From NCBI GenBank assembly GCA_008081395.1, contig VMCJ01000029.1:1-43876 (forward strand): DNA of 43,876 nucleotides, in the 5' to 3' direction. The DNA is from Rhodospirillales bacterium. GTDB lineage: Bacteria > Pseudomonadota > Alphaproteobacteria > Bin95. The translations under genes and the position numbers were made by a program. A model generated the notes under the pieces. The model saw nothing but the letters and a program-made list of their open reading frames with translations. It was not told the origin of the DNA and did no database searches. The number at the start of each line of letters is the position of its first letter. Position 1 is the stretch's first letter. Below are positions 13,115-41,923 of this stretch, one piece after another.

Positions 13115-13136
13115 CCCCTAACCTACTAGGGGTTTT
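13115..13136 (+). terminator. Weak intrinsic terminator candidate after modA
   Basis: CCCCTA-ACCTAC-TAGGGG followed by TTTT. Confidence 0.4.
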
Positions 13137-21329: not shown

Positions 21330-22547
21330 TCAACGATCAAAAAAGAGCGCTCTTCGCCAGATAATTGCAATAAGAACGATCGTTGCCAAACCGGTCCCTG
21401 CCGCAGCTAGGGCTGCTCCCTGAAACCCGAGTAAGTCCGTTGCCGGACCAACTAGAGCAAGGCCGATTGGCAGTCCATAAACTGCAAGCATTCTTACACC
21501 CATCACTCGGCCACGAAATTTAGCTTCTGCAAGCCGCAGCAAGGCTACAGCCATAGAAATCATCGCCACACCCTGCGCTACACCTACAAGGAACAACAAT
21601 GCCATTCCCTCTGCCTTTACCGAACTAAACGCGAATAATAACAAGAAGACGTGCCAAATAACTGCACCTCCAAAAACCAAATATATTGGTTTTCTGGCAC
21701 CTCCAGTTGCAGCCATCACAATGGATGCAACCAGCGAACCAACTCCAAAACTTGCAGCAAGATGTGAGAGCCCAGTGGCGTCCAGACCATAGACTTCACG
21801 GGCAACGTAAGAGAGTAGACCACTATTTGAAACGAGAGGAAAACCAGTAAGATTCACTAGAAAAGCGAGCCACATTAGAGCAAGTACTGCTGGGGTTCGT
21901 CGCACATAAGCGAGACCATCGATTACCTGACGAAATGGCTTTGGCCGAGTTGATGGCGTGTCGTCTGTCTCAATGTGCGCGACCCTGAGAGTTAAAACAA
22001 AGCTCGTAAAATACATTGCAGCCACAAAGGCATACGCAATGCCAAGCCCTAAAGAGGTTAGTAGCCCAGCTCCCGCGAGCGCACCTGTCATTCGCGCGGT
22101 ATCCATGGTGGTGCGTGAGAGTCCCATAGCATTAGCCAGTTTATTGGCAGGCATGGTGTCCCCGATTAGTGCATTGCGCATGACCAAGTCGGAAGGCCTT
22201 ATCAAACCCGCCACCGCAGCAATAATAAAAATTAATATTGGTTCCATGAGGCCAGAGAGATCTAGCGTCATGATTGTGACAGCAAGAACAGTGTAGAGTG
22301 CGCGAAGGGTCGATAAGGTTCGACGACGACCAATTCGATCTGCCAGCGCACCCATCGCCGGAGCAATCAAAGACCCTAAGTATTGAAGTCCAGCAAATAA
22401 CGCCAAGGCAGTTACAGATTTAGTTTCAATCAATACAAACCAATTCAGGATCAAAACTTCCATCTCCAGAGCGAATGAAGACAGAAGATCAGCAGGCCAT
22501 TGGAAGCGAAAACTTTTTACCGAAAAGGCAGAAAGAAAACCCCGCAT
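21330..22547 (-). CDS. MFS transporter (enterobactin-exporter/EntS-like group)
   Basis: 405 aa with about 12 hydrophobic segments; ADRIGRRRTLSTLRALY loop motif; 4-nt gap to the upstream acyl-CoA dehydrogenase gene. Confidence 0.85.
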   Translation of the reverse strand: MRGFLSAFSVKSFRFQWPADLLSSFALEMEVLILNWFVLIETKSVTALALFAGLQYLGSLIAPAMGALADRIGRRRTLSTLRALYTVLAVTIMTLDLSGLMEPILIFIIAAVAGLIRPSDLVMRNALIGDTMPANKLANAMGLSRTTMDTARMTGALAGAGLLTSLGLGIAYAFVAAMYFTSFVLTLRVAHIETDDTPSTRPKPFRQVIDGLAYVRRTPAVLALMWLAFLVNLTGFPLVSNSGLLSYVAREVYGLDATGLSHLAASFGVGSLVASIVMAATGGARKPIYLVFGGAVIWHVFLLLFAFSSVKAEGMALLFLVGVAQGVAMISMAVALLRLAEAKFRGRVMGVRMLAVYGLPIGLALVGPATDLLGFQGAALAAAGTGLATIVLIAIIWRRALFFDR

Positions 22548-22551
22548 GACC

Positions 22552-23787
22552 CTAAGCCGATGGCTTCAAAATTTGTGGAGAAGCTGCAAGCGGTTTGCTC
22601 GGCTTTGGCTCCAGGCGGTATATTTGTCGAAGATGCACTTCGTCTGGACCGTCAAAAATACGCAATGCTCTGGCCCAGGAGAAGGCATCGCGGATAGGAG
22701 TATCATCAGATCCCCCCATAGCACCAAAAATCTGCATGGCGCGATCAGCAATGCTTTGATAGGCATGCGCTACAGCAACTTTAATCATGGAAACGTGCTG
22801 GCGAGCTGACTTGAACCCCTCCTGATCAAGCATCCAAGCGCAAGACCAGGTTAGTAAGCGCGCCTGCTCGATCTCGATACGACTGCGAGCAATCATATGT
22901 TGGATTGAGTCATACTCAGAAATATTTTTTCCAAAAGCTGTTCGCTCACTTGCACGCATCTGCATTAGCTCAATTAAAGTTTCGCAGTGTCCGATTGCTC
23001 GCATGCAGTGGTGAACACGCGCAGGCCCAAGACGGGTCTGTCCCAAAATGAAGCCATCACCGCTCTCGCCTAATAAATTTTCAGCTGGCACCCGAACATC
23101 TTCGAATGCGATTTCCCACGCTGGTGCGCCAGGTTCAGAAAATCCCAAAAACGGCGTTGGACGAACAAAACGAACTCCTGGACTGTTGGCAGGGACAATA
23201 ATAACGCTATGTCTACGGTCCGGCGCCGCATCATCATCAGAAACACCCATAACCAAGTGAAAAGAAGCCGCCTTTGCTCCTGAAATGTACCATTTCCGAC
23301 CAGATACTATGAAGTCATTACCGTCTTGTTTGATTGTTGTTTGGATGTTTGTTGCGTCCGAGGATGCAACTGAGGGCTCTGTCATCGCAAAAGCAGATTG
23401 GACATCGCCGTTTAGGAGCGGATCAAGCCAAAGTTGACGCTGAGAAGATGTCACAGCATCAGCCATCATAATCATATTTGGCACATCAGGAGCATGACAA
23501 TTAAATGCCTTGGGCGCTCCCATGAAACGGCCCATCATTTCTGCCAGCGGTGCAAATTCTGCGTTGGTCAACCGCTCTCCAGGAGCATCACTAGGAAGGT
23601 TTGGAATCGCTAAGTTCCATAAACCTTCATCTTTCGCCTTGTTCTGCACTTCTGCAATAAATTCTGGATATTGCCCCTCCAAAGCTGCCTCACGCCATGG
23701 CCGAGCACGCGGTAAAATCTCGCGATCTATGAAAGCTTCCAGTTGATCAACTAGCCCTTGGACTTTAGGCGAATGGGCGAAGTCCAT
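22552..23787 (-). CDS. Acyl-CoA dehydrogenase, ACAD10/11-like
   Basis: AFAMTEPSVASSDATNIQTTI, WYISGAKAASFHLVMG, RLGPARVHHCMRAIG, RIEIEQARLLTWSCAWMLD, RALRIFDGPDEVHLRQI. Confidence 0.88.
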   Translation of the reverse strand: MDFAHSPKVQGLVDQLEAFIDREILPRARPWREAALEGQYPEFIAEVQNKAKDEGLWNLAIPNLPSDAPGERLTNAEFAPLAEMMGRFMGAPKAFNCHAPDVPNMIMMADAVTSSQRQLWLDPLLNGDVQSAFAMTEPSVASSDATNIQTTIKQDGNDFIVSGRKWYISGAKAASFHLVMGVSDDDAAPDRRHSVIIVPANSPGVRFVRPTPFLGFSEPGAPAWEIAFEDVRVPAENLLGESGDGFILGQTRLGPARVHHCMRAIGHCETLIELMQMRASERTAFGKNISEYDSIQHMIARSRIEIEQARLLTWSCAWMLDQEGFKSARQHVSMIKVAVAHAYQSIADRAMQIFGAMGGSDDTPIRDAFSWARALRIFDGPDEVHLRQIYRLEPKPSKPLAASPQILKPSA

Positions 23788-23837
23788 TTGACGGCTCCGA
23801 TAAAGATATAAATGGCAAAAATCAGTACGGATTGGAA

Positions 23838-25376
23838 TTATCCTGGAGTAAAGATGGCAATTCCATCAGAATTAGTCTTTACGTGACCGTGAAGCCCTAA
23901 GGCATCAGATTTTTCCAAATCCAAAAGCAATCCTGGGTCATCAGGAGTGTTCGCAATAAAGCGTCGGCCATCCTCCAAACGACCAAATAAAATAGCAAAA
24001 CTCGGACCCTCGCGGTCATGCATTACTGTGTAAGTCTCCACGGTTGCTTTGCCGACTGGCTTATCCGTTGTCTCAGGCCCTTTTTCAGCATCAATTTTAG
24101 CTTGATAAATAAGAGGGTCCTTGGGGTTAAAATTCTTCTCTGTTGGGGTTGTAGAGTAAATTCCAGCAGATTGCTTTGTCACATAATTACCGTTGGCTGT
24201 TACCATACCAAAACTGCCTGAGGAATTTCGGACCTTTACCATCATTTCTGCGATAGAGTGCGTGACATAGTTGTTTCCAGGTCCGCCAAAATAAGGAAGT
24301 CCACCTGTTACAGTGAGACCTCTAGGGTCATCCTCTGCAATACCCATTTCTGCACAAGCAATTTGCACTGCAGATGGAAAACAGGAGTAAAGATCAAGAA
24401 AATCTAGTTTTTCTTGCCCAAATCCTGCCATCTCAAATGTTTCCTCAGAAACCATGCGCATGGCAGGAGACGAGTAAAAATTAACTCGGTCACTAATATG
24501 CCAGTGGTCGTACGCATCTGCTGTCCCATGAAGGTAAACCCACCGGTCTTGAGGAATGCCTAACTCTTTTGCTTTTGCCACACTTGTTAAAATCACTGCA
24601 GCCGATTGATCAATAAATGCGTTCGCATTCATCAACTTGGTGTAAGGAAAACCGATGAAGGGATTTTTGGCTGATGGGGTTGCTATTTCTGTTGCGGTAA
24701 AACGATCACGACGATCTGCAAGTGGGTTTTGAGCGGCAACTGCAGAAAACCCCTCAAACAATTTTCCCATTTCCTTCAGGTGCTCAGATACAGAACGACC
24801 ACGATTCCCTCGAATACCATTCTCAAATAGTGGATATGCATAAATAGCGCCTGCCATACGGTGCCTATCCTCTACGTCACTCCACCCTCGCTTCGCCACA
24901 CCCCATTCTTCAGCTTTACCGCCAGCATCCTCATTCCAATCAAGATCGAGTGACAAACGTTGAGCAGCCTTTTGTGTGGCAAGCGCCTCCCCGCCCGCGA
25001 CTAAAGCTGCTTCAACCTCTCCTCTTGTGACCATTTCAAACAGTCGATTTATGGACCATTGAGGCATGTTCCCACCCGCATGGGTGTATATCAGTCTTGA
25101 AGCCTGGTTTGCGTCTAGCCGAGCGGCTAAAGACTTCGGAGGGTTAACTGGTCCACCAAAAGGCGACTTAAAGCGCCAACTCGTGTCTGAAAACGATCGT
25201 AATAAAACGATGGTATCCAATGTTGATAGGAGTGATTGTCCTACTCCTGAATCCTCTGCCGCCTGCTTCGCTGCAGCAGCTATCAAGTCAATTGGCTTTA
25301 ATGCCTTGAGCGGATCTGGCTCTCGTTGAGTTATCTGTCCTGCACCAACCAAAATAGGAATACGACTGTCGTCCAT
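23838..25376 (-). CDS. Thiolase-superfamily protein (acetyl-CoA acetyltransferase-like, long form with C-terminal extension)
   Basis: RIPILVGAGQITQRE, LDLYSCFPSAVQIACAEMGI (Cys), LTVTGGLPYFGGPGNNYVTHSIAEM (His region), C-terminal domain HDREGPSFAILFGRLEDGRRFIAN. Confidence 0.85.
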   Translation of the reverse strand: MDDSRIPILVGAGQITQREPDPLKALKPIDLIAAAAKQAAEDSGVGQSLLSTLDTIVLLRSFSDTSWRFKSPFGGPVNPPKSLAARLDANQASRLIYTHAGGNMPQWSINRLFEMVTRGEVEAALVAGGEALATQKAAQRLSLDLDWNEDAGGKAEEWGVAKRGWSDVEDRHRMAGAIYAYPLFENGIRGNRGRSVSEHLKEMGKLFEGFSAVAAQNPLADRRDRFTATEIATPSAKNPFIGFPYTKLMNANAFIDQSAAVILTSVAKAKELGIPQDRWVYLHGTADAYDHWHISDRVNFYSSPAMRMVSEETFEMAGFGQEKLDFLDLYSCFPSAVQIACAEMGIAEDDPRGLTVTGGLPYFGGPGNNYVTHSIAEMMVKVRNSSGSFGMVTANGNYVTKQSAGIYSTTPTEKNFNPKDPLIYQAKIDAEKGPETTDKPVGKATVETYTVMHDREGPSFAILFGRLEDGRRFIANTPDDPGLLLDLEKSDALGLHGHVKTNSDGIAIFTPG

Positions 25377-25493
25377 AAGCCAGGCTCCATCAAACCATCA
25401 ACGGTAAAACATGCTTGCATAACCAAACAGGTAGTTGAAGAGCCCCTCAAACTGGCTACTGTTGCATCTATGATGTAATTTTAGGTTTAAACG

Positions 25494-27089
25494 ATGGTTG
25501 AGATTAAAAACTTTGATGTGATGGTTGTCGGCGCTGGCTTTGGTGGCATGTACATGCTGCATAAACTTCGCCAACAAGGGCTCAAAGTACGTGTCCTCGA
25601 GGCGGGCGATGGTGTTGGTGGGACATGGTATTGGAATCGCTACCCTGGCGCACGTTGCGACGTTGAAAGCGTTCAATACTCACTTCAATTCGACGATGAC
25701 CTTGAACAGGAATGGAATTGGTCAGAACGTTATGCTGCCCAACCTGAAATACTTCGATATGCCAATCATGTAGCCGACCGGTTTGATTTGCGCCGAGACA
25801 TTCAATTCAATGCGCGTGTTTCCTCCGCAAAATATAACGAATCAGCCAAGACCTGGAGTCTAACCACGGAAGAAGGTGAGCAGTTTGAGGCTCCTTTCTG
25901 TGTGATGGCTTTGGGCTGTCTTTCTGCTCCAAACCACCCGCACTTTGATGGTGCAGAAAATTTTAAAGGCCCAATTTATCACACTGGAGAATGGCCTCAC
26001 GAAGGCGTGAATTTCGAAGGAAAAAGGGTGGCTGTTATTGGAACCGGCTCATCGGCCATTCAATCAATCCCAATCATAGCCAAACAAGCAAAGAGCCTGA
26101 CCGTATTTCAGCGAACGGCAAACTATGCAATTCCAGCAAATAATCACAATTTAGATGACGACTATATCGCTGAAATCAAAAAGACTTACAAACAGCTCCG
26201 CGCTTACGCAAAAACCATGCCGACGGGTGTAGCGTTTGATTTCCGGGACATTGCAGCGCTCGAGTCAACTGACGAAGAAAGACGTACCGAGTATCAGAAA
26301 CGCTGGGATCGAGGTGGACTGTCTTTTCTCGGAGGTTTTAAGGACCTGCTGTTTGTTAAGGAAGCAAACGATACAGCTGCCGAATTCGTGCGAGAGAAAA
26401 TCCGCAGCTTAGTGGATGATCCAAAGGTTGCGGACATGCTCTGCCCTGAAAATATCATTGGCTGCAAACGTCTATGCGTCGATATTGGATATTACCAAAC
26501 GTATAACCTCCCCCACGTCAAACTTATTGATGTTTCTAAAAACCCAATCCAACGGATTACATCCAAGGGTGTGCTGGCACACGATATTGAAACAGAAGTT
26601 GATACTATCGTTTTTGCGACAGGTTTTGACGCGATGACGGGCGCTCTGAATAGGATAAACATTGAGGGACGGAATGGCCGACAACTGAGGGAAAAGTGGC
26701 ATGGCGGAGCACGCAGCTATTTGGGACTAGCCATTGCAGGATTTCCGAACCTTTTTACGGTCACTGGCCCCGGAAGCCCTTCAGTTCTGACCAATATGCT
26801 TCCGTCAATTGAACAACATGTTGAATGGATAGACCGTTGTATTTCTGACCTAAGGAAAAGTGGAAAAACAGAAATTGAAGCGGAAGTAGTAGCGGAAAAT
26901 AATTGGGTGGATCATGTAAATGAAACAGCAGAATTATCGCTACGCTCGGTGTGCTCGTCTTGGTATGTAGGTGCCAATGTTCCTGGCAAACCAAGGGTTT
27001 TCATGCCGTACATTGGAGGATTCCCCCGTTATGTAGCTAAGTGCGAGGACGTTGCGTCCAAGGAATATGATGGGTTTCAGCTTTCATGA
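25494..27089 (+). CDS. Flavin-containing Baeyer-Villiger-type monooxygenase (copy 1)
   Basis: VVGAGFGGMYMLHKLR Rossmann motif; GVGGTWYWNRYPGARCDVES; BVMO fingerprint FKGPIYHTGEWP (25962-25997); VIGTGSSAIQS second Rossmann motif. Confidence 0.93.
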   Translation: MVEIKNFDVMVVGAGFGGMYMLHKLRQQGLKVRVLEAGDGVGGTWYWNRYPGARCDVESVQYSLQFDDDLEQEWNWSERYAAQPEILRYANHVADRFDLRRDIQFNARVSSAKYNESAKTWSLTTEEGEQFEAPFCVMALGCLSAPNHPHFDGAENFKGPIYHTGEWPHEGVNFEGKRVAVIGTGSSAIQSIPIIAKQAKSLTVFQRTANYAIPANNHNLDDDYIAEIKKTYKQLRAYAKTMPTGVAFDFRDIAALESTDEERRTEYQKRWDRGGLSFLGGFKDLLFVKEANDTAAEFVREKIRSLVDDPKVADMLCPENIIGCKRLCVDIGYYQTYNLPHVKLIDVSKNPIQRITSKGVLAHDIETEVDTIVFATGFDAMTGALNRINIEGRNGRQLREKWHGGARSYLGLAIAGFPNLFTVTGPGSPSVLTNMLPSIEQHVEWIDRCISDLRKSGKTEIEAEVVAENNWVDHVNETAELSLRSVCSSWYVGANVPGKPRVFMPYIGGFPRYVAKCEDVASKEYDGFQLS

Positions 27090-29389
27090 GCACTGGAGTT
27101 GAGATTGCCAAAGTTGGGGCCACGCCAAAGCGCAAAGAAGACTATCGGTTTGTTACTGGGCAAGGCTGTTATCTTGACGACATGGTTTTTGAAAATGTTG
27201 CCCACGCTGTTTTTCTACGCAGTCCCCACGCAAGTGCAGAAATAAGAAAAATCGACTTTTCGGTTGCAAAAGCGGCACCTGGGGTCATCGCCGTATTGAC
27301 TTCCAGTGATCTCGGCGCAGACGGTATCGGCAACCTCGATCCTTATGTGACAGCAAACACCATGACTGGCGAACCCTTTAACTGGGGACCACAACCACTT
27401 TTAGCAGATAACCATGTTCGCTACGTCGGTGAACCCGTGGTCATGGTTTTAGCCGAAACTAAGTTGGCCGCGCTCGATGCAGCAGAAATGATTGAAGTAG
27501 ATTATTCAGAAAAAAAGGCTGTCGTGGATGGAAGAGCCGCTTTGGAAGTTGGCGCCCCACAGGTAGACCCCAGGGTTCCTGGAAACCTATGTATGGACTG
27601 GAAACATGGAGACAATGATGGCGTCTTTAAGTCCTTGTCCGTCGCCGAACATGTAGTCTCAATAGAACTTTTAAACCACCGGGTAATCACCCATCCCATT
27701 GAGCCAAGAGGAGGAGTGGCGGTCTATCACCCCGATACAGACCGCTTCACTTTCCACGTATCAAGCCAAAGCCTTCATAATAATCGGGACCATATTGCTA
27801 AGGCTCTTAAAATTAAACGCACCCAATCCAGGTGGCTCGCACCAGATGTAGGAGGAGGGTTTGGCTCAAAAAATTTTGGCTACCAAGAACAAGGACTACT
27901 GCTCTGGGCCGCAAAAAAATCTGGCCGGCCAGTAAAATGGATTGCCACTCGCTCGGAAGTTTTTCTTAGTGATCATCAGGTTCGTGACCACAGAGCAATG
28001 GCTCGACTTGGCCTTGATAAAGAAGGGCGTTTCATTGCCCTTGAAATTGAAAGCATTGCAAATCTTGGCGCTTATATTGCCGGTTCCGCTGCCGGCGTGC
28101 AGACAAACCAATACGCGCATCTTCCTGGGACCGTATACGATATTCCCAAGATCGCGATGCGAGCACGTTCCGTCCTCTCAAATACTACACCCATTGGGGT
28201 TATGCGAGGACCAGGCTTTGCAGAGATGGTTAACATCATGGAGCGCCTGGTCGATAAAGCAGCCTACTCTACTGGAATAGACAGGTTTGAACTTCGGCGC
28301 CGTAACCTCTTCAGCAAAACGCCCATGCGCAATGCTCTTGGTACTAGAGTAGATAGTGGTAACTTTCCAAAAGCATTCGAAGAAGTATTGCAGGTAATAG
28401 ATGCGGATGGATTTTCCTCAAGACAGATAAACTCATCGAAGTTACGCGGCCTGGGGGTCGCGTGTCATATAAAAGCAAATGGTGGGTCACCAGATGAAAG
28501 CGCCTCGATACGCTTTCGAGCTGATGGTGGCGTTGATTTAGCTGTTGGCACGCAAACAATTGGACAAGGCCACGAGACAACATTTTCACAACTGTTGTCA
28601 GACAGACTTGGAATAGAAAATAACAAAATTCGCTTGATCCATGGCGATACTGACGCTGTACCAATCGGTGGTGGCCATGGCAGCAGCCGAGCTACTTATA
28701 TGGCGGGCACAGCCATATGGCGGGCCGCCGAAGAAATTGTAGAACAGGCTACTCCGATAGCTGCAGAAATGCTGCAAGCTGGAACCGTCACCTTCAAGGA
28801 TGGTTCTTTCAGAGCGGATGATCGCAGCGTTGATCTTATTGAGGTGGCCGCGGAAGCAGAGCTACGCGGCAATCCTCTGAATGCCTTTCACGCTTTTTCA
28901 CGCGGGCAAATGGCATATCCAAACGGCGCCCAAGCCGCGGAGGTTGAAGTGGATCCAGAAACTGGCGAGGTTCACCTGGTGAATTATGCTTCCGTTGACG
29001 ATTACGGGGTTATGGTGAACCCCATGATAGTTGAGGGGCAAGTCGCAGGCGCTATTGCTCAAGGAATGGGTCAGGCAGTGCTGGAAGGCACAATTTTTGA
29101 TGCAAAGACTGGGCAACCTCTAACCGGAAGTTTCATGGACTATGCCATTCCTCGCGCCGACAATCTTCCATCCTTGAAACTTGGTTTCAGCATGACACGA
29201 TGCACAACCAATCCCTTTGGTGTTAAAGGAGCCGGCGAGTCTGGAGCAATCGCAGCCTATCCTGCCATCACGCTTGCTATACTAAACGCTCTAAACCCCC
29301 TTGGGGTAAATGGCTGGGATGGGCCTGCAAAGCCCGAAACAATTTGGCGATCGATTCAAGATGCAAAGACCCTAAACGGAAGAACTTAA
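27086..29389 (+). CDS. Xanthine dehydrogenase/CO dehydrogenase family molybdopterin-binding (large) subunit
   Basis: 767 aa; KRKEDYRFVTGQGCYLDD, DVGGGFGSKNF, GVMRGPGFAE, QTIGQGHETTFSQLLSDRLG, FGVKGAGESGAIAAYPAI (catalytic Glu region); ATGA overlap with BVMO gene. Confidence 0.92.
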   Translation: MSTGVEIAKVGATPKRKEDYRFVTGQGCYLDDMVFENVAHAVFLRSPHASAEIRKIDFSVAKAAPGVIAVLTSSDLGADGIGNLDPYVTANTMTGEPFNWGPQPLLADNHVRYVGEPVVMVLAETKLAALDAAEMIEVDYSEKKAVVDGRAALEVGAPQVDPRVPGNLCMDWKHGDNDGVFKSLSVAEHVVSIELLNHRVITHPIEPRGGVAVYHPDTDRFTFHVSSQSLHNNRDHIAKALKIKRTQSRWLAPDVGGGFGSKNFGYQEQGLLLWAAKKSGRPVKWIATRSEVFLSDHQVRDHRAMARLGLDKEGRFIALEIESIANLGAYIAGSAAGVQTNQYAHLPGTVYDIPKIAMRARSVLSNTTPIGVMRGPGFAEMVNIMERLVDKAAYSTGIDRFELRRRNLFSKTPMRNALGTRVDSGNFPKAFEEVLQVIDADGFSSRQINSSKLRGLGVACHIKANGGSPDESASIRFRADGGVDLAVGTQTIGQGHETTFSQLLSDRLGIENNKIRLIHGDTDAVPIGGGHGSSRATYMAGTAIWRAAEEIVEQATPIAAEMLQAGTVTFKDGSFRADDRSVDLIEVAAEAELRGNPLNAFHAFSRGQMAYPNGAQAAEVEVDPETGEVHLVNYASVDDYGVMVNPMIVEGQVAGAIAQGMGQAVLEGTIFDAKTGQPLTGSFMDYAIPRADNLPSLKLGFSMTRCTTNPFGVKGAGESGAIAAYPAITLAILNALNPLGVNGWDGPAKPETIWRSIQDAKTLNGRT

Positions 29390-29390
29390 A

Positions 29391-30995: not shown

Positions 30996-31049
30996 CTTAA
31001 CTCAGCATTGGTGACAGTTACAAGCAACCTAGAAAAAGGAAGATTTTCA

Positions 31050-31517: not shown

Positions 31518-32392
31518 TCCCTCTTAAATTTGTAATCGAAACGATCAGGTCCATCCATCGTAACAGTACCCACCGTTGGAGCGGGAAAGTGTATGGGCAA
31601 AAGAAGCACATCGGTTCCAGCCACCTCAGACAAAAATTTTCGACGAGAGCGAGCTGCCTCCTTTTGATCCCAGTCTGGATTTACTGACCAATCGGGCTCT
31701 CTGCACTGAATGGCATGGTGCATCATGTCCCCAGTAATAATCGCTGTTTCCCCTTTAGAATGAAGGTTAACGCAACAATGGCAGGGTGAATGACCTGGAG
31801 TTGGGGTAAGAGTTACCAAATCATCTAGTTTGTAGTCGTCGTCAACTAATAGAGCTTGTCCTGCCTCTACTATTGGTAAGCAATTATCTCGAAAAACTGT
31901 ACCTGGAGGATTTGCGCCCTTTGCATGCTCAGCTTCCCAAATCGCATATTCACCCTTATGAAAAATGTATTTTGCATTAGGAAATGTGGGGACCCAACGA
32001 CCATCCTTCAGGGTTGTATTCCATCCTGTATGATCAATGTGCAAGTGAGTACAAAAAACGTAGTCTACATCTTCAAATTTTACGCCAAGCGCAAATAACT
32101 CTTCCCGCCAACGTTCTTTGCCGGGAAAATCAAATGGTGCCGGATGGCCTTTATGCTCACCAGTACACGTATCAACCAAAATAGTGAGATTTGGTGTTCG
32201 GATAACAAAGGTCTGGTAAGTCATCACCAACTTCCCAGTGGTGGGGTCAAACACCTCTGGCTCCATTTTTGGAACATGTGCTTGAAAAGTTGCTTCATCG
32301 AAGTCTGGAAAGAAGTCCTCAGGTTTGCGCCATGGCCCATCTCTCTCAATAACAGCATCAATAGTTATGTCACCGATCTTGATTTGCCTCAT
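31514..32392 (-). CDS. MBL-fold metallo-hydrolase, lactonase-like (copy 1)
   Basis: FCTHLHIDHTGW (HxHxDH), PTPGHSPCHCCVNL, IITGDMMHHAIQ, LLPIHFPAP; GGGAGG SD suits second Met at 32392 (ORF track start 32398). Confidence 0.9.
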   Translation of the reverse strand: MRQIKIGDITIDAVIERDGPWRKPEDFFPDFDEATFQAHVPKMEPEVFDPTTGKLVMTYQTFVIRTPNLTILVDTCTGEHKGHPAPFDFPGKERWREELFALGVKFEDVDYVFCTHLHIDHTGWNTTLKDGRWVPTFPNAKYIFHKGEYAIWEAEHAKGANPPGTVFRDNCLPIVEAGQALLVDDDYKLDDLVTLTPTPGHSPCHCCVNLHSKGETAIITGDMMHHAIQCREPDWSVNPDWDQKEAARSRRKFLSEVAGTDVLLLPIHFPAPTVGTVTMDGPDRFDYKFKRD

Positions 32393-32491
32393 GAACATCC
32401 TCCCAGAAAAGGTTTAAGCTCAGATTAATCCCTGGTTGACTCTACCGCCAGATATCGGACCCTCATTATTGAAAAAAATGGAACCCTAAAA

Positions 32492-33892
32492 ATGCTAACA
32501 CCGTTCGAAGAAGTTATGTCGATCCGATCCCTCACTTCTCCAGAGCCTGAGGAAGTAGAGATAATAGGTAGTGAACCAATCCTTTCCACCAAATTTCGTA
32601 TAGGGACAACCGCTGCAGCCGTTCTGGCAGGAATTGGTGTTGCAACTAACGATATTTGGGAGATGAAAACCGGCAGACGCCAAAAGGTGAAGATCAATAT
32701 GCGTCACACGGCAGCCGCCCTTCGAAGCTCAAATTATTTGCAGCGTCCGGACGGGAGTGGAGGCTGGGAAAATTGTGTAAATCGTGCCCATGAGGACATG
32801 ATCGCAATAACTCAACCTTGGCCAACAAAAGATGGACGGTGGTTTTTACCTCACTTTGGCTTACCTCACCTTCAAAAACGGGTTCTTAACTTGCTCGGCG
32901 CGGAGCCCAATCCCAAAAGTGTTGCAGCTGCTGTTTCCCGTCACGATGCGATCGAACTTGAACAGGCAATCGACGAAATTCGTGCATGCGGAGCTATGGT
33001 GCGAAGTAACGAAGAGTGGCTAGCAACTGAACATGGCAAAGTGTTAGCGGGAAAGCCGATAGTTGAAATTATAAAAATTGGCGACAGTGAACCTGAACCG
33101 TTACCCGATGGACCACGTCCATTATCAGGAATTCGAGCACTGGATTTAACAAGAATTCTAGCTGGACCAATTTCTGCCCGCTCACTTGCTGAACATGGTG
33201 CCGATGTCCTCATGGTAACCGCTCCCCATCTACCCCAAATTGCCGAACATGTGATTGACACAAGCCATGGGAAACGCAGTTGTTTTTTGGATCTCCGAGA
33301 CGACAAAGATGCTGAGAAACTTAAATTTCTGGCAAGTAATGCTGATATCTTTACCCAAGGATACCGCCCCGGCATTATTGCCAGCCATGGCTTTGCACCA
33401 GATGACCTGGCAACGATCCGCCCAGGCATAATTTATGTGTCAATAAGCTGTTTTGGTGCCGACGGTCCTTTCAGCCACAGAGCAGGCTGGGAACAAGTCG
33501 CCCAGACAGTAACGGGTATTGCTCAAGAAGGCTCTCCCGAACGTCCAAAACTACTCCCTGCAGCCGCCAATGATTACACCACCGGATATCTTGCAGCGTA
33601 CGGTGTTCTTTTAGCTTTAGCACGCCGCGCCAAAGACGGTGGCAGCTACCACGTCCGCGTCTCGCTATGCCAATCTGGGATGTTCATTTATCGTCAAGGA
33701 AACGTAAAATTCTCGGAACCAAATTATGACTTTCCAACCTCAGAACTAGATAATTATAGATGCGAAAGTAAGCTAGCAGCAGGTCCTATTCGCCATTTGG
33801 CACCTGTGTTGCAAATGTCAGAGACGCAGCCTTTTTGGGAACTTCCTTCCCCAACCCTTGGAGGCAATTCCGCCGAATGGCAAACTAGATAA
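32492..33892 (+). CDS. CaiB/BaiF-type (class III) CoA-transferase with non-canonical domain order
   Basis: Canonical N-terminal CaiB-like motif LSGIRALDLTRILAGPISARSLAEHGADVLMV occurs in the middle of the ORF, followed by SHGKRSCFLDLRD, IFTQGYRPGIIASHGF, IIYVSISCFGADGPF; N-terminal half carries WLATEHGKVLAGKPIVEI resembling the C-terminal part of the family. Confidence 0.85.
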   Translation: MLTPFEEVMSIRSLTSPEPEEVEIIGSEPILSTKFRIGTTAAAVLAGIGVATNDIWEMKTGRRQKVKINMRHTAAALRSSNYLQRPDGSGGWENCVNRAHEDMIAITQPWPTKDGRWFLPHFGLPHLQKRVLNLLGAEPNPKSVAAAVSRHDAIELEQAIDEIRACGAMVRSNEEWLATEHGKVLAGKPIVEIIKIGDSEPEPLPDGPRPLSGIRALDLTRILAGPISARSLAEHGADVLMVTAPHLPQIAEHVIDTSHGKRSCFLDLRDDKDAEKLKFLASNADIFTQGYRPGIIASHGFAPDDLATIRPGIIYVSISCFGADGPFSHRAGWEQVAQTVTGIAQEGSPERPKLLPAAANDYTTGYLAAYGVLLALARRAKDGGSYHVRVSLCQSGMFIYRQGNVKFSEPNYDFPTSELDNYRCESKLAAGPIRHLAPVLQMSETQPFWELPSPTLGGNSAEWQTR

Positions 33893-34055: not shown

Positions 34056-35669
34056 ATGCCTGAAACATCTGAGGCCCAATTCGATGCTATTGTCATTGGA
34101 GCTGGATTTGCTGGGATGTATCAGCTCCACCTTCTAAGAGACAAACTTGGCCTAAAGGTTCGAGTTCTTGAACAAGGCAGCGGTGTGGGTGGAACATGGT
34201 ACTGGAACCGTTATCCAGGAGCTCGCTGCGATACGGAAAGCCATGCTTACTGCTACACATTTTCTGAGTCACTTTACTGCAGTTGGGATTGGTCAGAGCG
34301 TTACCCCGAGCAACCAGAAATTATGCGGTATTTAAATTTTGCCGCAGATCAACTGGATCTGAAGAAAGATATTCAATTTGATACCAGAGTTTCTGGAGCC
34401 TCCTGGGATGAAGATGTCCGTTGTTGGAGGATAATGACTGAAAACCACGGCGAATATACTGCTCGGTTTTTGATCACAGCAGTTGGCTGCCTTTCAGCTG
34501 CTAATATTCCAAACTTCAAGGGCCTTGATAGCTTTAAAGGTCAATGGATACACACAGGATCGTGGCCTCAAGATGGAGTAGATTTCTCTGGAAAACGTGT
34601 CGGTTTAATTGGCACTGGCTCAACTGGCGTTCAGGCAACTCCTGTTATTGCTAAAGAAGCGGATCATCTCACTGTATTCCAACGAACACCAAACTATTCG
34701 GTCCCTGCACGCAACGCGCCTCTAACCGAAGACTTCAAACGCTCGGTCCACAAAAATTTTGAAGAGATCGCACGCAATATGAAAGCAACAACCAATGGTC
34801 ATCCTTGGGGCGTTGAAAATCGTCGAGCAGTTGAGACCTCTGCTGACGAACAAGAAAGGTTGCTCGAGGCAGCATGGCAAGTAGGGGGAATGCAGTTCAG
34901 GGCAGTATTCAATGATATCATGGTAGATGAAGCTGCTAATAAGGTAATGGCGGACTTCGTAACAAGAAAAATTCGTGAAACGGTAAAAGACCCGATAACA
35001 GCAGAAAAACTAACCGCTTTTGACCATCATTATTCTACAAAGCGTCCAATCATCGATAGCCACTATTTTGAAACATACAATCGTGAAAATGTATCTCTTG
35101 TAGATGTTAAAGAAGCACCAATTGAAGAGATCACACCTCGTGGTCTGCGGACGTCTGATGGCACTGAGTACGATCTAGACATTATTGTGTTTGCTACTGG
35201 TTATGACGGAGTGACCGGTCCTTTAACTAGGCTTAATCTTATTGGCCGCGATGGTCTTTCTCTTGGGGATGTTTGGCAAGAAGGTCCAAAAACTTATCTC
35301 GGCTTGCAAGTCGAGGGGTTCCCTAACTTGTTCACAATTACTGGGCCACAAAGCCCTTCTGTATTAACGAACATGCCAGTTGCAATTGAACAACATGCTG
35401 AGTGGATAGCCAATGCTATTACTCACATTGACCAAATTGGCGCAAGTTGTATGGAACCCACTTCTACAGCGGTGAATGAATGGGAAACCCAAGTTCAGAA
35501 AGCTGCTCAAGCCACCTTACTGATTACGGCAAAATCTTCATGGTATCTTGGCGCAAATGTTCCAGGAAAACCTCGTGTCTTCTTACCCTATGCTGGAGGA
35601 ATGGCCCGCTACCGAGATATTTGTGAAGACGTAGTTGAACAAAATTATAAGGGTTTTAAGGTAGCCTAA
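34056..35669 (+). CDS. Flavin-containing Baeyer-Villiger-type monooxygenase (copy 2)
   Basis: VIGAGFAGMYQLHLLR, GVGGTWYWNRYPGARCDTES, BVMO fingerprint FKGQWIHTGSWP (34533-34568), LIGTGSTGVQATP. Confidence 0.93.
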   Translation: MPETSEAQFDAIVIGAGFAGMYQLHLLRDKLGLKVRVLEQGSGVGGTWYWNRYPGARCDTESHAYCYTFSESLYCSWDWSERYPEQPEIMRYLNFAADQLDLKKDIQFDTRVSGASWDEDVRCWRIMTENHGEYTARFLITAVGCLSAANIPNFKGLDSFKGQWIHTGSWPQDGVDFSGKRVGLIGTGSTGVQATPVIAKEADHLTVFQRTPNYSVPARNAPLTEDFKRSVHKNFEEIARNMKATTNGHPWGVENRRAVETSADEQERLLEAAWQVGGMQFRAVFNDIMVDEAANKVMADFVTRKIRETVKDPITAEKLTAFDHHYSTKRPIIDSHYFETYNRENVSLVDVKEAPIEEITPRGLRTSDGTEYDLDIIVFATGYDGVTGPLTRLNLIGRDGLSLGDVWQEGPKTYLGLQVEGFPNLFTITGPQSPSVLTNMPVAIEQHAEWIANAITHIDQIGASCMEPTSTAVNEWETQVQKAAQATLLITAKSSWYLGANVPGKPRVFLPYAGGMARYRDICEDVVEQNYKGFKVA

Positions 35670-35771
35670 AGTCGAAGCAGTGATGAACCTAAGTCGCTGC
35701 CAAACTGTGATCTACAGAGTTTAAAACTGACGCCACATGTTAAGAGATTGGCCCCAGCTTCATAAAGAGAG

Positions 35772-36653
35772 CTAGAGCTGCCAGCGCTCAGGTATGACTT
35801 TGAAGCCACTACGATCACGCACAACATAACTGCAGGCGGGGAAGTGAAGGTGCATACCAGCTACTAATAGCCGATCACTTGCCACCATATCACATACACG
35901 CTGGCGAGTAGCTCCTGCCTGAGCAGGGTCACTGTCCATAGCCATGGTGACATGAGGCATCGGGGCCTGGATATCAGGGACATGCATAATGTCACCCCAA
36001 ATCAAAAGCTGCTCATTACCTGATTGAACATTAAACATGCTATGGCCTGGCGTATGTCCATGAGCAGCCATTGCGATCACACCAGGGAACACTTCGTCAC
36101 CATCGGCAAACATGCGCATTTGTTTTTTATAAGGTGCAACCTGCTCTCGGGTAGCCTGAAAGAAAAGTTGTTTTTCTCGTTCGGTGCCCCGGGCCATAGC
36201 TGCATCATCCTCCCAATGCTTCAGCTCGTTCTCGTGAAAAACAAGCTCGGCATTTGGAAAAAAAGGCGTCCAGCTATTTCTATCGCTCAGACCAGCTGAG
36301 TGATCAGGATGCATGTGAGTAAGTAGAATAGTATCTATGTCCGTTGTCTTGATACCAGCCGCCTGGAGGTTTTGCATCATCCAACCACCTGTGTCTGCCA
36401 TATAGGTGCCACACCCAGTGTCAACCAAAGCAAGCTTACCTTGGGAATGGATTAAAAAGGTATTCACTGAAGTCTTACGACCTTTTGCAGGACCAAAGGC
36501 ATCAACAATCATTCGTTGGGCATCTTCTTCAGCAATATTATGCAGAACGTCCAACGTTCCCATTAAGTATCCATCGGAAACTACCGTTACAGTTATGTCT
36601 CCAACCTGTCGGTGATAAATGCCAGGTATTTGGCCTGCTGGGGGCGTAACCAT
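35772..36653 (-). CDS. MBL-fold metallo-hydrolase, lactonase-like (copy 2)
   Basis: ILLTHMHPDHSAGL (HxHxDH), AAHGHTPGHSMFNV, IWGDIMHV, VAGMHLHFPA; ORF track start TTG 36671, ATG 36653 preferred. Confidence 0.9.
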   Translation of the reverse strand: MVTPPAGQIPGIYHRQVGDITVTVVSDGYLMGTLDVLHNIAEEDAQRMIVDAFGPAKGRKTSVNTFLIHSQGKLALVDTGCGTYMADTGGWMMQNLQAAGIKTTDIDTILLTHMHPDHSAGLSDRNSWTPFFPNAELVFHENELKHWEDDAAMARGTEREKQLFFQATREQVAPYKKQMRMFADGDEVFPGVIAMAAHGHTPGHSMFNVQSGNEQLLIWGDIMHVPDIQAPMPHVTMAMDSDPAQAGATRQRVCDMVASDRLLVAGMHLHFPACSYVVRDRSGFKVIPERWQL

Positions 36654-36769
36654 GCCAATAGCTTCCTTCAAATAAGCGGATATATAGTCACATCATGCTG
36701 CCATGGTGAGCTTTTAGTAACAATGAAAAACTAAGATTCATTAAGAAATATCGGGAAGATAGAAAATAC

Positions 36770-37600
36770 CTAAAACGGCACCTCTCCCCTAACTAATACA
36801 CGATGCATCACACGGCCAATTTTCAAATCGTAATCAGCGTGCGCCCGATGAGAAACCCCACGATTGTCCCAGATTATTAAATCTCCAGGAAGCCAGCGGT
36901 GCCGGTAGATGACTTCCGAAACTATAGTTCTGTCGAGCAACTGATCTACAAAAATGCGGCTAGCTTCAGGTGTCATGCCTTCGATACATTCTGTTTTACC
37001 AGGGTGTAAATAGATGCCTTGCCTTCCCGTATCAGGATGAGTGCGGATCAGCGGATGACTTTGTCTTTCACCAAATCGGCTTCGGTCTTCATCGCTAACA
37101 TACGAATGATCTTCAATTTTGTTCAAAGTGCGCAGATTTACTAACTCTTTGCGCTCGTCCTCTGACAAAAGGCCATAAGCTCTTTGCATATTTGCAAAAC
37201 TAGTATCACCACCAGTTTCTGGAAGGTTAACGGCATAAAGCACCGTAAACTTCGGCGGCATGGCATGGTTGGTATGATCGGTATGCCAGGCTCTTGAACC
37301 AACGGGCATAGATTTTCCATCTGGCCCAGGCTGTACATTCCTACTATCTAAAACTGCTATATCCGGATGCTCAGGCATTAGCATTTCAGTTAGGTGCTGA
37401 GGCATGATTTCGCCAAACATTCGAACAGCAGCAACGAGTTGATCTGGGTTTAGATTTTGGTTCCTCACGACCAATACTAGGTGCTCTGCCAACTCTGATT
37501 TAAGCGTTTGAAGTTCACTGTCTAAAACAGGGTTTCTGAAATCAATGCCAAAAACCTCCGCACCTAAGGCATCACTGATTGGTCTAATTTTCAAAGACAT
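36770..37600 (-). CDS. TauD/TfdA family Fe(II)/2-oxoglutarate-dependent dioxygenase
   Basis: RAWHTDHTNHAMPPKFTVLYAVNLPETGGDTSFANM (HxD), DLIIWDNRGVSHRAHADY (His), GRVMHRVLVRG (Arg). Confidence 0.92.
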   Translation of the reverse strand: MSLKIRPISDALGAEVFGIDFRNPVLDSELQTLKSELAEHLVLVVRNQNLNPDQLVAAVRMFGEIMPQHLTEMLMPEHPDIAVLDSRNVQPGPDGKSMPVGSRAWHTDHTNHAMPPKFTVLYAVNLPETGGDTSFANMQRAYGLLSEDERKELVNLRTLNKIEDHSYVSDEDRSRFGERQSHPLIRTHPDTGRQGIYLHPGKTECIEGMTPEASRIFVDQLLDRTIVSEVIYRHRWLPGDLIIWDNRGVSHRAHADYDLKIGRVMHRVLVRGEVPF

Positions 37601-37647
37601 TTCCTAGCACTCCACTTGAAGAACTCATCTGAAATTCAGACATCAAA

Positions 37648-39249
37648 TCAGGCTGCATCAGCTAAGATCATTTCAGAAGCTTTCTCACCAATCATAATTG
37701 AAGGCGCATTAGTATTCCCAGAAGACAAAGTAGGCATGATTGAGGCATCTGCTACCCTCAAACCGGTTAAGCCATGCACTCGCAGCCGCTCGTCGACCAC
37801 CGCCAACGGATCAGAACCCATCTTACAAGTACCGACTGGGTGATATGTCGTTTCGGCCGTTTGCTTAACCCAAGCCATAAGTTCATCATCATCTTGTAAA
37901 CCAGGATTGGGAAATATCTCTTCAACCTGGAGATGCTGCATAGCGGGCATACCCATTATCTCTCTGGTCATCCGGATACCATGCAAAGTAATTTCCGCAT
38001 CTGGCGGCGATGAAAGAAAGTTGAAATTAATTTCCGGCTGAACATATGGATCATCACTTCCGATATGAATACTTCCTGTACTTTCAGACCGAAGCGGATG
38101 AGTAAAAGTCGTAATGCCAGACTCTTCGTCAATCCTATAACCTGGAGCCACCAGAAGCGGAAACCAACCAATGCAAGCATCTGGTGACTCTAAGCCTCCT
38201 CTGGTTCTGAAAAATGCTCGTACAGGCGCTGCTGGCAAGCCTAATAAGCCAGTGCGTTTAAAGAAAAATTTAAAAGCTTCTCGAACAATGCCAAGACCGC
38301 GAGCTTTATCATTATAAGTGAAGCCTCGAGCCCCAATTCGCCAACGCATCCGGGGAGCGTAATGATCTCGCAAATTTTCTCCTACACCTGCCAGGTCATG
38401 TACTACATCGATTCCAAGGTTTCGTAGACGGGAAGATTGACCAATACCTGAGAGTTCAAGCAATTGCGGTGATTTTACAGAGCCTGCAGACACTATCACC
38501 TCTCGGCCGGCTCGCGCCTTATGAACAGTTCCCCTTCTGGAATAAGAAACACCAACGCATCGACTACCCTCAAAAAGCAAACAATCGGCTAGGGCTTCAG
38601 ATATAATTTTAAGGTTGCTTCGAGTCTTGGCAGGTTCAAGATAACAATGGGCAGTACTTTGACGGCGCCCCCTAGATATTGTTGTCTGACTTATTGAGAC
38701 CCCTTCTTGACTAGCTCCATTATAATCTGAATTGAAAGGTAAGCCGGCTTGCTGGCTAGCATCTAAGATTGCCTGATAAAGAGGCTCAACCTCAGGTATC
38801 TCCGTAACCCTAAGAGGTCCTGAGCGACCGCGATACTCCTCGTCACCTCCATCAAACTGCTCCATCTTTTGGAAGAACGGAAGCACCTCACGATAGCTCC
38901 AGCCTCGGTTCCCAAGTTGGGCCCAGGTGTCATAATCTAGCGACTGGCCTCTGACAAAAATCATGCCATTTATTGCACTTGAACCTCCCAAGAGTTTGCC
39001 ACGAGGAACAGGCATACGGCGTCCGTTAGTATTCTCTTCTGGCTCGGCGCTGTAGCACCAATTTGCATCTGGGTTTTCTATTAATCTACCAAAACCGATT
39101 GGAATGCGCGTCCAGATGTTGTTTGGCTTTCCCGCTTCGAGCAGTAAAACTCTTGTCCTTTCATCTGCACTAAGCCGGTTGGCAAGCACAGCACCCGCTG
39201 AACCTGCCCCAATAATAATGTAATCAAAGACCTCTTCTATTGTTTCCAT
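37648..39249 (-). CDS. GMC family FAD oxidoreductase (copy 2)
   Basis: IIGAGSAGAVLANRLS, GKLLGGSSAINGMIFVRGQ, AGSVKSPQLLELSGIG, TTYHPVGTCKMGSD, SGNTNAPSIMIGEKASEM. Confidence 0.95.
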   Translation of the reverse strand: METIEEVFDYIIIGAGSAGAVLANRLSADERTRVLLLEAGKPNNIWTRIPIGFGRLIENPDANWCYSAEPEENTNGRRMPVPRGKLLGGSSAINGMIFVRGQSLDYDTWAQLGNRGWSYREVLPFFQKMEQFDGGDEEYRGRSGPLRVTEIPEVEPLYQAILDASQQAGLPFNSDYNGASQEGVSISQTTISRGRRQSTAHCYLEPAKTRSNLKIISEALADCLLFEGSRCVGVSYSRRGTVHKARAGREVIVSAGSVKSPQLLELSGIGQSSRLRNLGIDVVHDLAGVGENLRDHYAPRMRWRIGARGFTYNDKARGLGIVREAFKFFFKRTGLLGLPAAPVRAFFRTRGGLESPDACIGWFPLLVAPGYRIDEESGITTFTHPLRSESTGSIHIGSDDPYVQPEINFNFLSSPPDAEITLHGIRMTREIMGMPAMQHLQVEEIFPNPGLQDDDELMAWVKQTAETTYHPVGTCKMGSDPLAVVDERLRVHGLTGLRVADASIMPTLSSGNTNAPSIMIGEKASEMILADAA

Positions 39250-39328
39250 CTTGATCTAATTGCCTCCCTCGACTTGGAGGAAGCGTAGCCAAACGAAAGA
39301 GCATAGCAATCCTTTTAGCCACTTTGAG

Positions 39329-40615
39329 CTAACTTTTATCCTTAGATGATGGTGGTATTGATCCCGCCAATCGGTAACGGAAACGAACAAATGCAAGAGC
39401 AGCAAGACCAAAAAGAGATGTCATGCACAGCGCTATTGGCGCGCTCAATTGCTCAGCAACCCATCCAATGCAAAAAAAGCCGATTGGGGCGGTACCAATA
39501 CATAAAGTAAGCACACCAAGAACACGGCTTCTGAAAGCCGGAGGTGCTGCTAAATAAGAAAGAGTGCTTTGCATTGCTGAGAAACAAGCTCCAGCAATGC
39601 CAATCCCAACTAAAACTGCACCACACGCAATAAACGGAAGACTGATGTTGGAAATATTAATTGCTAGTCCTGCTAAAACACCCACAAGGGCCAAATACAC
39701 TGCAACGCCACGAAAATAGATTTTAAAGTGAATTTCAGGCCGCGCTATCAATGCAACCATAATAGCTCCAATAAAAGCACCAAGCCCCTCCAAACTCGAC
39801 AACACCCCAACCCAGAAAGGGTCAAGTTTTAGTTGCCGAGCACCCAAAACAGGAATCATGGACGTAAAGGCAAAACCAAAAATATTAAAAACTATGGTTA
39901 CCGATAGCACGAGCTTGAGCCATACATCGCCAGATACTAGACGAACGCCGCCTGCGAGATCATTGAACAGAGATGTAGTAGATTTAGAAAGGACTTTAAT
40001 TTGGGGTAACTGCACTGATGCTACTAACAGCAGAACTATGGTGTAACAAACAAAGCTGAACACAAAGACACCCGCTATTCCCATTAACTGTAACGTCAGT
40101 CCACCGAGAAGCGGCCCAAGCATTCGAGTAGCATTACCAGTTGCAGCGTCTAGGCTCATTGCTGGCGCAAGTGCATTTCCAGATAAATCTCCTATCAGCC
40201 GACGTCGTATCGGCATATCGGTAGCCCAGAAAACCCCCGCCAGAAGAGACGCTATGGCAATATGGCCAAATACTAATTCCCCCACATGCGCCACATACGC
40301 CATTATTAATGATACGGAGCAAACGAGCGCGGTTGTTGCAATAAATAAATGCTTCCGGTCTGTTCTATCGGCAACTACGCCCCACAACGGGCCAGTTAAT
40401 GCCATCGGTGCCATGAACAAGAGAGGCACCATAGATACTAAAAAAGGCGATGCTGTAATATCGAGAGTGTAAACGCTCAACGCCAAAAGCTGCAGCCACC
40501 TAATTACTCCGATTAGGGTGCCTGCCATCCAAAACGCTAGAAAGCCCTTGTCGAAAAGAAGAGACTTTATACCCTGTGGAACTTCGGGCTGATGTTCTAC
40601 ATTTGCGGAATTCAA
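39329..40615 (-). CDS. MFS transporter, probable TTG start
   Basis: 428 aa, about 12 hydrophobic segments, GVVADRTDRKHLFIATTAL loop motif; the start codon is TTG and an in-frame stop lies shortly upstream with no ATG between. Confidence 0.83.
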   Translation of the reverse strand: MNSANVEHQPEVPQGIKSLLFDKGFLAFWMAGTLIGVIRWLQLLALSVYTLDITASPFLVSMVPLLFMAPMALTGPLWGVVADRTDRKHLFIATTALVCSVSLIMAYVAHVGELVFGHIAIASLLAGVFWATDMPIRRRLIGDLSGNALAPAMSLDAATGNATRMLGPLLGGLTLQLMGIAGVFVFSFVCYTIVLLLVASVQLPQIKVLSKSTTSLFNDLAGGVRLVSGDVWLKLVLSVTIVFNIFGFAFTSMIPVLGARQLKLDPFWVGVLSSLEGLGAFIGAIMVALIARPEIHFKIYFRGVAVYLALVGVLAGLAINISNISLPFIACGAVLVGIGIAGACFSAMQSTLSYLAAPPAFRSRVLGVLTLCIGTAPIGFFCIGWVAEQLSAPIALCMTSLFGLAALAFVRFRYRLAGSIPPSSKDKS

Positions 40616-40900
40616 GATGTAATCCGTACTAAATGGTTAAAGTCGACTTGTGCAAAAAACAATTTCTTGAAGAGGCGGATGAATACCGCCAAACCGGATT
40701 CTCAAAAAAGAGGTTTTCACAAATCCATATCACATCAAATGAAATATAGACGAACACTTAAAATCTTACGAAATTTCTCCTGCTTCCATTTTCCTAAAAA
40801 TTCTTAGCTTTTTGAGTCATTATACTTTCCATTCGGGAAAGGTACTTCCTCGATATAACTTTAAATAGGTCTTAAGACTGGTATCAGTGAGGGCGGGCGC

Positions 40901-41923
40901 ATGGCGACTAAAACGCACCAATCAAGTGAAGCTATGATTGACCAAACACGAGATGGAATTCCAATTCTCGACATATCAGCATACCTCGCGAGCAAGCCCG
41001 GCGCCTTAGAAGCTTTAGCTGAAGGTATTAGAAGCGCGCTAACTAATATTGGTTTCTTTTATATCGCAGAGCACCCTATTCCATCTGATTTACTTGAGCG
41101 AATGTTTGAGGAAACAAAACGCTTCCATGCGCTTCCCCTCGAAAGAAAAATGAAGATCCATCTTAATCGTTCTAACAACGGATATATGCCGCTGAAAGGG
41201 CACGCCCAACGACACTCCGTTCTCAACAAAAATCCGAAACCGAATGAAAATGAGTCATTTTTTGCGCGCCGCGAGAGGGACCCCGAAGATCCAGATGTTA
41301 AAGCTGGTAAAGATCTTCGCGATCCAAATCAGTGGCCAGAAAATCTTCCTGGATTCAAATCGACAGTGCAAAAGTATATGACGACCATGGAGGCTTTCAG
41401 CCTCCAGTTGCTACCTGCTTATGCTGTCGCGTTTGGTATGGAGCCCAACTACTTTGAGCCTTATTTCAAGGAAAGCGAAACGATAGTCAGGATGATCCAC
41501 TATCCAACTGCGTCAAAAACCGATTATGCAGAAAACATATTTGGCACAGCACCTCATACAGATCGGAATTTTTCCACGTTTCTCGCCCAGGCGAACGTTC
41601 CAGGTTTGCAAATCCGAACCCCTAAGGGGGAGTGGCTCCCCGCACCGATCATTTCGGGGACTTTTCTAGTGAATTCAGGGGATACTCTGCGGCGGTGGAC
41701 TAACGATAGATTTCTCTCAACGGCGCATCGTGTTTTTAATAACTCCGGTGAGGATCGATATTCTATTCCATTCTTCCTCGCTCCAAATTTAACCGCAAAA
41801 ATTGCGCCATTGGCTAGCTGCGTTGATGCTTTGCACCCTGCGAAGTATCCTGATGTGATCTACGAGGACATGCAGATTGAGTTTCTAAACAAAAACTATT
41901 TCAACAGGCAGAAGCAAACCTGA
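40901..41923 (+). CDS. Isopenicillin N synthase-like 2-oxoglutarate/Fe(II) oxygenase
   Basis: IPILDISAYL, IGFFYIAEHPIPSDLLERMFEETKRFHALPLERKMKI, TAPHTDRNFSTFLAQANVPGLQI (HxD), FLSTAHRVFNNSGEDRYSIPFFLAPN (H, RxS). Confidence 0.9.
   Translation: MATKTHQSSEAMIDQTRDGIPILDISAYLASKPGALEALAEGIRSALTNIGFFYIAEHPIPSDLLERMFEETKRFHALPLERKMKIHLNRSNNGYMPLKGHAQRHSVLNKNPKPNENESFFARRERDPEDPDVKAGKDLRDPNQWPENLPGFKSTVQKYMTTMEAFSLQLLPAYAVAFGMEPNYFEPYFKESETIVRMIHYPTASKTDYAENIFGTAPHTDRNFSTFLAQANVPGLQIRTPKGEWLPAPIISGTFLVNSGDTLRRWTNDRFLSTAHRVFNNSGEDRYSIPFFLAPNLTAKIAPLASCVDALHPAKYPDVIYEDMQIEFLNKNYFNRQKQT

Follow-up and report, generated by a model that had tools for sequence, protein, structure and literature searches.

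What does a dense run of oxidative genes do for an uncultured alphaproteobacterium? We addressed this question for a contig of a Rhodospirillales bacterium (VMCJ01000029.1, GenBank assembly GCA_008081395.1), positions 1 to 43,876; this 43,876-nucleotide stretch is referred to as the window. A first-pass annotation had proposed that positions 21330-41923 encode a catabolic island that degrades a cyclic or terpenoid/sterol-like substrate by way of a lactone. Pfam and NCBIfam annotation confirmed its gene list: two GMC oxidoreductases, two flavin monooxygenases of the Baeyer-Villiger type (BVMOs), two metallo-beta-lactamase-fold (MBL) hydrolases, a family III CoA-transferase (CoAT), an acyl-CoA dehydrogenase (ACAD), a thiolase-like protein (TLP), two Fe(II)/2-oxoglutarate (2OG) oxygenases, a DUF3237 protein and two MFS transporters, with no housekeeping gene between. 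The list had missed a molybdenum (Mo) hydroxylase large subunit, XdhL (27086-29389).

The block is a genuine oxidative cluster that selection has maintained. Its collinearity with a sister genome, together with the recurrence elsewhere of ACAD-TLP beside XdhL and of BVMO beside XdhL, makes it likely that the block is a catabolic island of oxidative genes centred on a BVMO. More specifically, we give about even credence to the view that two related, uncultured alphaproteobacterial species carry an accessory island for oxidative catabolism, with a type I BVMO and a stand-alone large subunit of a Mo hydroxylase at its centre. This view is based on the gene families and their intact motifs, the overlaps within the operon, purifying selection and partial synteny; from these we infer the reactions and their order.

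A block maintained by selection

The block of ~21 kilobases (20.6-41.9 kb) holds 16 genes within 20627-41923. At its core, on the plus strand, BVMO1 (25494-27089) is followed by XdhL, the choline-dehydrogenase-like GMC oxidoreductase GMC1 (29391-30995) and the DUF3237 gene (31008-31517). XdhL overlaps the BVMO1 stop by 4 bp (spacing -4) and the next two gaps are +1 and +12 bp, so the four genes look like one operon.

We sampled the order through 14 genomes of one family, the source genome and 13 relatives. In the sister genome G002 the block is collinear, with order and orientation kept, on two contigs broken inside TLP. Ten of the 12 genes compared have dS of 1.4-2.1 and dN/dS of 0.013-0.069, and synonymous sites are saturated in the remaining two; these values come from a simple Nei-Gojobori count, and the dS values are rough. 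These data place the block under strong purifying selection at a near-saturated synonymous distance. Because order and orientation have been kept while synonymous sites approached saturation, the arrangement is more than chance.

The genes beyond the right-hand 2OG gene differ in G002, and the gene after AMPb, a phenylacetate-CoA-ligase-like protein on the left, differs in G001 and G004, indicating that the block has edges. The natural borders lie at about 20627, where a carbonic anhydrase is co-directional with the TLP-ACAD-MFS1 run, and 41923. Besides AMPb, the left flank carries the ordinary genes BacA, Hsp33, OTC, an aminotransferase and RecX, and the right flank carries FecR and a ribosome hibernation factor. 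GC is 0.467 in the left flank and 0.472 in the block; composition therefore lends nothing to a recent foreign island, which is unsupported. Between BacA and Hsp33 lies a 208-amino-acid open reading frame (15073-15699) that has a GTG start, overlaps Hsp33 and has no Pfam or NCBIfam match.

XdhL and its recurrent partners

XdhL (plus strand, 767 amino acids) is a CoxL-like protein with MoCoBD_1 (E 8e-66) and MoCoBD_2 (E 1.5e-73) domains and the catalytic glutamate of the GxGE motif, Glu718 in GAGES, which is invariant across eight relatives. By domains and catalytic residue, it is a large subunit of the xanthine-oxidase family of Mo hydroxylases. Aerobic CO dehydrogenases carry the active-site loop AYXCSFR (form I) or AYRGAGR (form II). 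XdhL reads GVMRGPGFAEM where this loop would stand, which rules out a CO dehydrogenase.

Neither CoxS nor CoxM lies beside the large subunit in the window or in 87 loci bearing CoxL homologues (a few of them fetched twice), with flanks of up to 10 kb. The source genome encodes six CoxL-type large subunits and an IorB type, versus only two CoxS and an IorA type. On its contig C6 (L063:9358-11442) there is a CoxG-CoxS-CoxM set, but the CoxL found between CoxS and CoxM in G001, G002 and G003 is gone. On C6, CoxS (93% identical to its G002 counterpart) and CoxM (81%) are both intact, and an error in the metagenome-assembled genome may be the cause of the loss. Because CoxL outnumbers CoxS, C6 has CoxS and CoxM without CoxL, and XdhL loci have neither, we infer that XdhL shares small subunits in trans. 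Large-subunit matches equalled or exceeded small-subunit matches in 23 of the 23 genomes examined, usually at ~2:1. A literature search on stand-alone large subunits yielded nothing. Elsewhere in the source genome, a further solo CoxL adjoins a CaiB-type CoA-transferase, and 1.8 kb beyond lies a TauD-type dioxygenase (contig C2; L215:7258-10887 and 12649-13518). On C6, a solo CoxL is directly followed by a luciferase-like monooxygenase (L063:15864-19530), a second pairing of CoxL with a flavin monooxygenase in this genome.

With a profile of the XdhL clade, we recovered 80 loci from GTDB species, all alphaproteobacterial by their titles save a few metagenome-assembled genomes with generic or doubtful titles. 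A type I BVMO lies within 5 kb of the XdhL-clade gene at 35 of the 80 (G002 included, along with Reyranella, Enhydrobacter and others), and eight more have a luciferase-like flavin monooxygenase nearby. Many loci share ancestry, so the 35 are not 35 independent cases. In a tree, the XdhL-linked BVMOs fall into two or more lineages, probably three (Reyranella-type, window-type and L142/L163-type). The tree separates BVMO1 from the Reyranella XdhL-linked BVMOs, and we do not treat them as orthologues; the AU test of this separation is borderline (p 0.0502), and the number of independent pairings is therefore put at "at least two, probably three". Another solo CoxL clade, ~40% identical to XdhL, stands beside a BVMO 62% identical to BVMO1 in four genomes of genus g2 (G005, G007, G008 and G012; loci L046, L047, L048 and L044), again without small subunits. 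ACAD-TLP lies opposite or beside XdhL in three other genomes (G001, G003 and L125). The window unites both linkages.

The enzymes of the block belong to familiar types; the new element is the recurrent pairing of a BVMO with a stand-alone Mo-hydroxylase subunit. If the pairing is functional, it offers a clue to what CoxL-type large subunits do in the many cases where no partner gene is nearby. It also ties native BVMOs, which often lack a known physiological substrate, to a pathway testable in culturable strains that bear the pairing (Reyranella massiliensis, R. aquatilis and Enhydrobacter aerosaccus). At the Reyranella-type loci L117, L118, L131, L147 and L154, a DAO-family flavoprotein and a DUF938 methyltransferase join the pair, and an RND pump or gamma-glutamyltranspeptidase is often present as well.

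What the block may break down

In a motif scan, BVMO1 and BVMO2 (34056-35669, plus strand) each contain FxGxxxHxxxW[P/D], [A/G]GxWxxxx[F/Y]P[G/M]xxxD and two GxGxx[G/A] Rossmann motifs; BVMO1 reads FKGPIYHTGEWP at 157 and BVMO2 reads FKGQWIHTGSWP at 160. By this fingerprint both are genuine type I BVMOs, and ketone oxygenation is predicted for them. Their best structure matches are phenylacetone and steroid monooxygenases, at ~590-613 bits and nearly full length. The steroid monooxygenase matches are the only hint of the terpenoid or sterol substrate proposed in the first-pass annotation, and the phenylacetone monooxygenase matches carry equal weight; such a substrate is unsupported, and a sterol is not specifically favoured. 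The source genome has at least nine BVMO matches, among them two adjacent, divergent BVMO-like genes on contig C10 (L061:7150-10698).

The HxHxDH metal motif is intact in MBL1 (31514-32398, minus strand; HLHIDH at 118) and MBL2 (35772-36671, minus strand; HMHPDH at 119). MBL2 resembles methyl-parathion hydrolase, a reconstructed dihydrocoumarin hydrolase and AidB-type lactonases, with MBL1 more remote. Because the AidB equivalog scores of MBL2 (198.8 bits) and MBL1 (72.9 bits) both fall below the curated cut-off of 360 bits, "lactonase" is a putative label. By family, at least one MBL belongs to the lactonase/methyl-parathion-hydrolase group.

ACAD (22552-23787, minus strand) has HCMR at 260 and a catalytic Asp379, in FDGPDEVH, instead of Glu. 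This combination is special to ACAD10, ACAD11 and LvaC, which act on phosphorylated 4-hydroxyacyl-CoA (PMC12440821). The type predicts a 4-hydroxyacyl-CoA substrate, which would fit lactone-derived hydroxy acids. TLP (23838-25376, minus strand) has the C-terminal domain of type 1 thiolase-like proteins (TLP1_add_C, PF18313, E 8.5e-14) and belongs to TLP1. It has Gly where thiolases hold the nucleophilic Cys of the CxS motif (GG at 101-102), and its only cysteines are Cys332 and Cys341. The TLP1 of M. smegmatis has the same Cys-to-Gly change and no thiolase activity (PMC3406046). An LvaC-type ACAD alongside a non-thiolase TLP1 provides genomic context for the TLP1 family. On these features, both genes had been mis-assigned in the first-pass annotation.

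Catalytic motifs are intact in both GMCs, both 2OG enzymes, CoAT, the Mo subunit, the BVMOs and the MBLs. From the left edge, the beta-carbonic anhydrase CA (20627-21265, Pfam Pro_CA), which adjoins MFS1 in G002 too, MFS1 (21330-22547; MFS_1/MFS_3, 2A0121 family), ACAD and TLP form a leftward run, which CA ends. The rightward run from BVMO1 to DUF3237 follows. Next come MBL1 leftward, CoAT (32492-33892; Asp361 in ANDYTTG) and BVMO2 rightward, then MBL2, the TauD/TfdA-type Fe(II)/2OG dioxygenase TauD (36770-37600), GMC2 (37648-39249) and MFS2 (39329-40615; MFS_3, EntS-like) leftward. The IPNS/DIOX-type, IPNS-like Fe(II)/2OG oxygenase (40901-41923, rightward) forms the right edge. The layout of CoAT is odd, with one half duplicated or rearranged: residues 211-407 correspond to the N-terminal region of CaiB proteins, and the first 200 resemble a partial second copy that begins at the catalytic-Asp region.

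We propose that the MFS carriers would take up a substrate that a 2OG enzyme would hydroxylate and the GMC dehydrogenases would oxidize to a ketone or aldehyde. The BVMOs would convert the ketone to an ester or lactone, which the MBL hydrolases would open. XdhL, with FeS and FAD subunits from another locus, could perform a further oxidation (e.g. aldehyde to acid), and CoAT would form the thioester. The LvaC-type ACAD could then handle a 4-hydroxyacyl-CoA once it is phosphorylated by a kinase encoded elsewhere. The block's probable role is to degrade a ketone-bearing ring or aromatic compound. That the route passes through a lactone or ester is plausible, and some independent support comes from the 4-hydroxyacyl-CoA-type ACAD.

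Several observations weigh against the island. Pfam and NCBIfam found no enoyl-CoA hydratase, (3-)hydroxyacyl-CoA dehydrogenase or true thiolase in 20627-41923, and Pfam, in a search confined to the window, found no APH-like/LvaA-type kinase. With a TLP that lacks the Cys, this rules out a complete beta-oxidation end; the full pathway is not encoded, and the claim that the gene combination covers every step fails. The lactone route survives in part, through the type I BVMO fingerprints, the lactonase-group MBL and the ACAD type. The neighbourhood search that the first-pass annotation had suggested also gave a divided answer. Of the 13 relatives in the order, just one retains the entire block; in the remaining 12, the homologues of BVMO1, BVMO2 and CoAT are not linked. 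The block has no regulator gene, and its genes divide into six or more transcription units with divergent orientations. Finally, none of 20 other loci with DUF3237 relatives has a GMC, BVMO or MBL gene nearby.

Some of these data would suit a composite neighbourhood, in which independent small catabolic modules with different substrates (ACAD-TLP-XdhL; GMC1-DUF3237; BVMO2; MBL2-TauD-GMC2-MFS2; 2OG) happen to lie side by side. The divergent units and missing regulator are consistent with it, as are the ACAD-TLP-XdhL sets of G001 and G003, which have no BVMO, BVMO2 and CoAT homologues standing alone in relatives, and the many BVMO and CoxL paralogues scattered over the source genome. However, a composite does not readily account for the exact order and orientation shared with G002 at near-saturated dS, with other genes past the right edge. 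We regard it as possible, if somewhat unlikely. The adjacency of GMC1 and DUF3237, 12 bp apart, is suggestive. The only characterised bacterial DUF3237 members that we found, PinX, PhcF and PhcG, are decarboxylases that act after side-chain oxidation in lignin-dimer catabolism, and PhcC and PhcD are GMC-family proteins (PMC12607616, PMC12997858). The block could thus serve a lignan/phenylcoumaran-like aromatic dimer through GMC oxidation, DUF3237 decarboxylation (cf. PhcC/D-PhcF/G and PinY-PinX), Baeyer-Villiger cleavage of an aryl ketone and ester hydrolysis, and the closeness of the BVMOs to phenylacetone monooxygenase would fit. This route is unlikely: the adjacency was seen at 0/20 of the other DUF3237 loci and is not a conserved Phc-like pair, the block has no lignostilbene dioxygenase or aromatic ring-cleavage gene, and a 4-hydroxyacyl-CoA-type ACAD is unexpected. 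The DUF3237 domain itself is clear (PF11578, E 4.8e-45). A fold search gave significant matches to its own family and PhnH-type relatives only, and a weak resemblance to the barrels of allene oxide cyclase and PloI4 cyclase; the predicted fold, which suggests only a "DUF3237 barrel", is not decisive.

We give very little weight to a role outside catabolism, in which the block would modify, make or detoxify a secondary metabolite and export it. The two MFS proteins are similar to exporter-type families (MFS_3, EntS-like), and the BVMOs match the pentalenolactone D synthase PtlE and TauD matches PtlD, all far below family cut-offs. The window contains no terpene synthase, PKS, NRPS or other scaffold-forming enzyme, and CoAT and ACAD suggest breakdown. 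Returning to the oxidative catabolic island, we advance one extension tentatively and with considerable doubt. The block may represent an undescribed unit in which a type I BVMO acts in sequence with a stand-alone catalytic subunit of a Mo hydroxylase that borrows its FeS and FAD partners in trans. This pairing would have arisen more than once in Alphaproteobacteria, each time from a different BVMO lineage, and would be extended here with an LvaC-type ACAD, TLP1, GMC and DUF3237 into a new pathway from ketone through lactone or ester to 4-hydroxyacyl-CoA.

Comparison with known systems

We know of no case in which a phenylacetone or steroid monooxygenase is clustered with a Mo-hydroxylase subunit. 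BVMO1 and BVMO2 share the full type I fingerprint with these enzymes (PDB 1W4X, 4AOS). XdhL has the large-subunit fold and catalytic Glu of aerobic CO dehydrogenase and quinoline oxidoreductase (PDB 8UEM, 1T3Q), but differs in its active-site loop and in having no small or medium subunit gene nearby. The block ACAD shares HCMR and the catalytic Asp with the lva operon and the ACAD10-ACAD11 route for 4-hydroxy acids (PMC12440821), whereas the block lacks an LvaA-type kinase and an LvaE-type synthetase. TLP matches M. smegmatis TLP1 (PDB 4EGV, PMC3406046) in thiolase fold, C-terminal domain and Cys-to-Gly change. It differs in context, lying here in the TLP-ACAD-MFS1-CA run and elsewhere opposite a Mo-hydroxylase gene. 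The PhcC/PhcD-PhcF/PhcG and PinY-PinX systems likewise combine a GMC oxidoreductase with a DUF3237 protein (PMC12997858, PMC12607616), but the block has no stilbene dioxygenase and its GMC-DUF3237 adjacency is not conserved.

The first-pass annotation did not recognise a described cluster. This holds for the exact gene combination, which our literature search did not find, and not for the concept: the one conceptually similar system, a BVMO-lactone route for recalcitrant cyclic, sterol-like matter, was proposed for SAR202 in 2017 (PMC5395668). Both share the logic of ketone to lactone to hydroxy acid, with dehydrogenases upstream. In SAR202, however, the enzymes are FMN/F420-dependent and type II BVMO-like and form very large families, whereas the block described here has two type I FAD BVMOs in one island.

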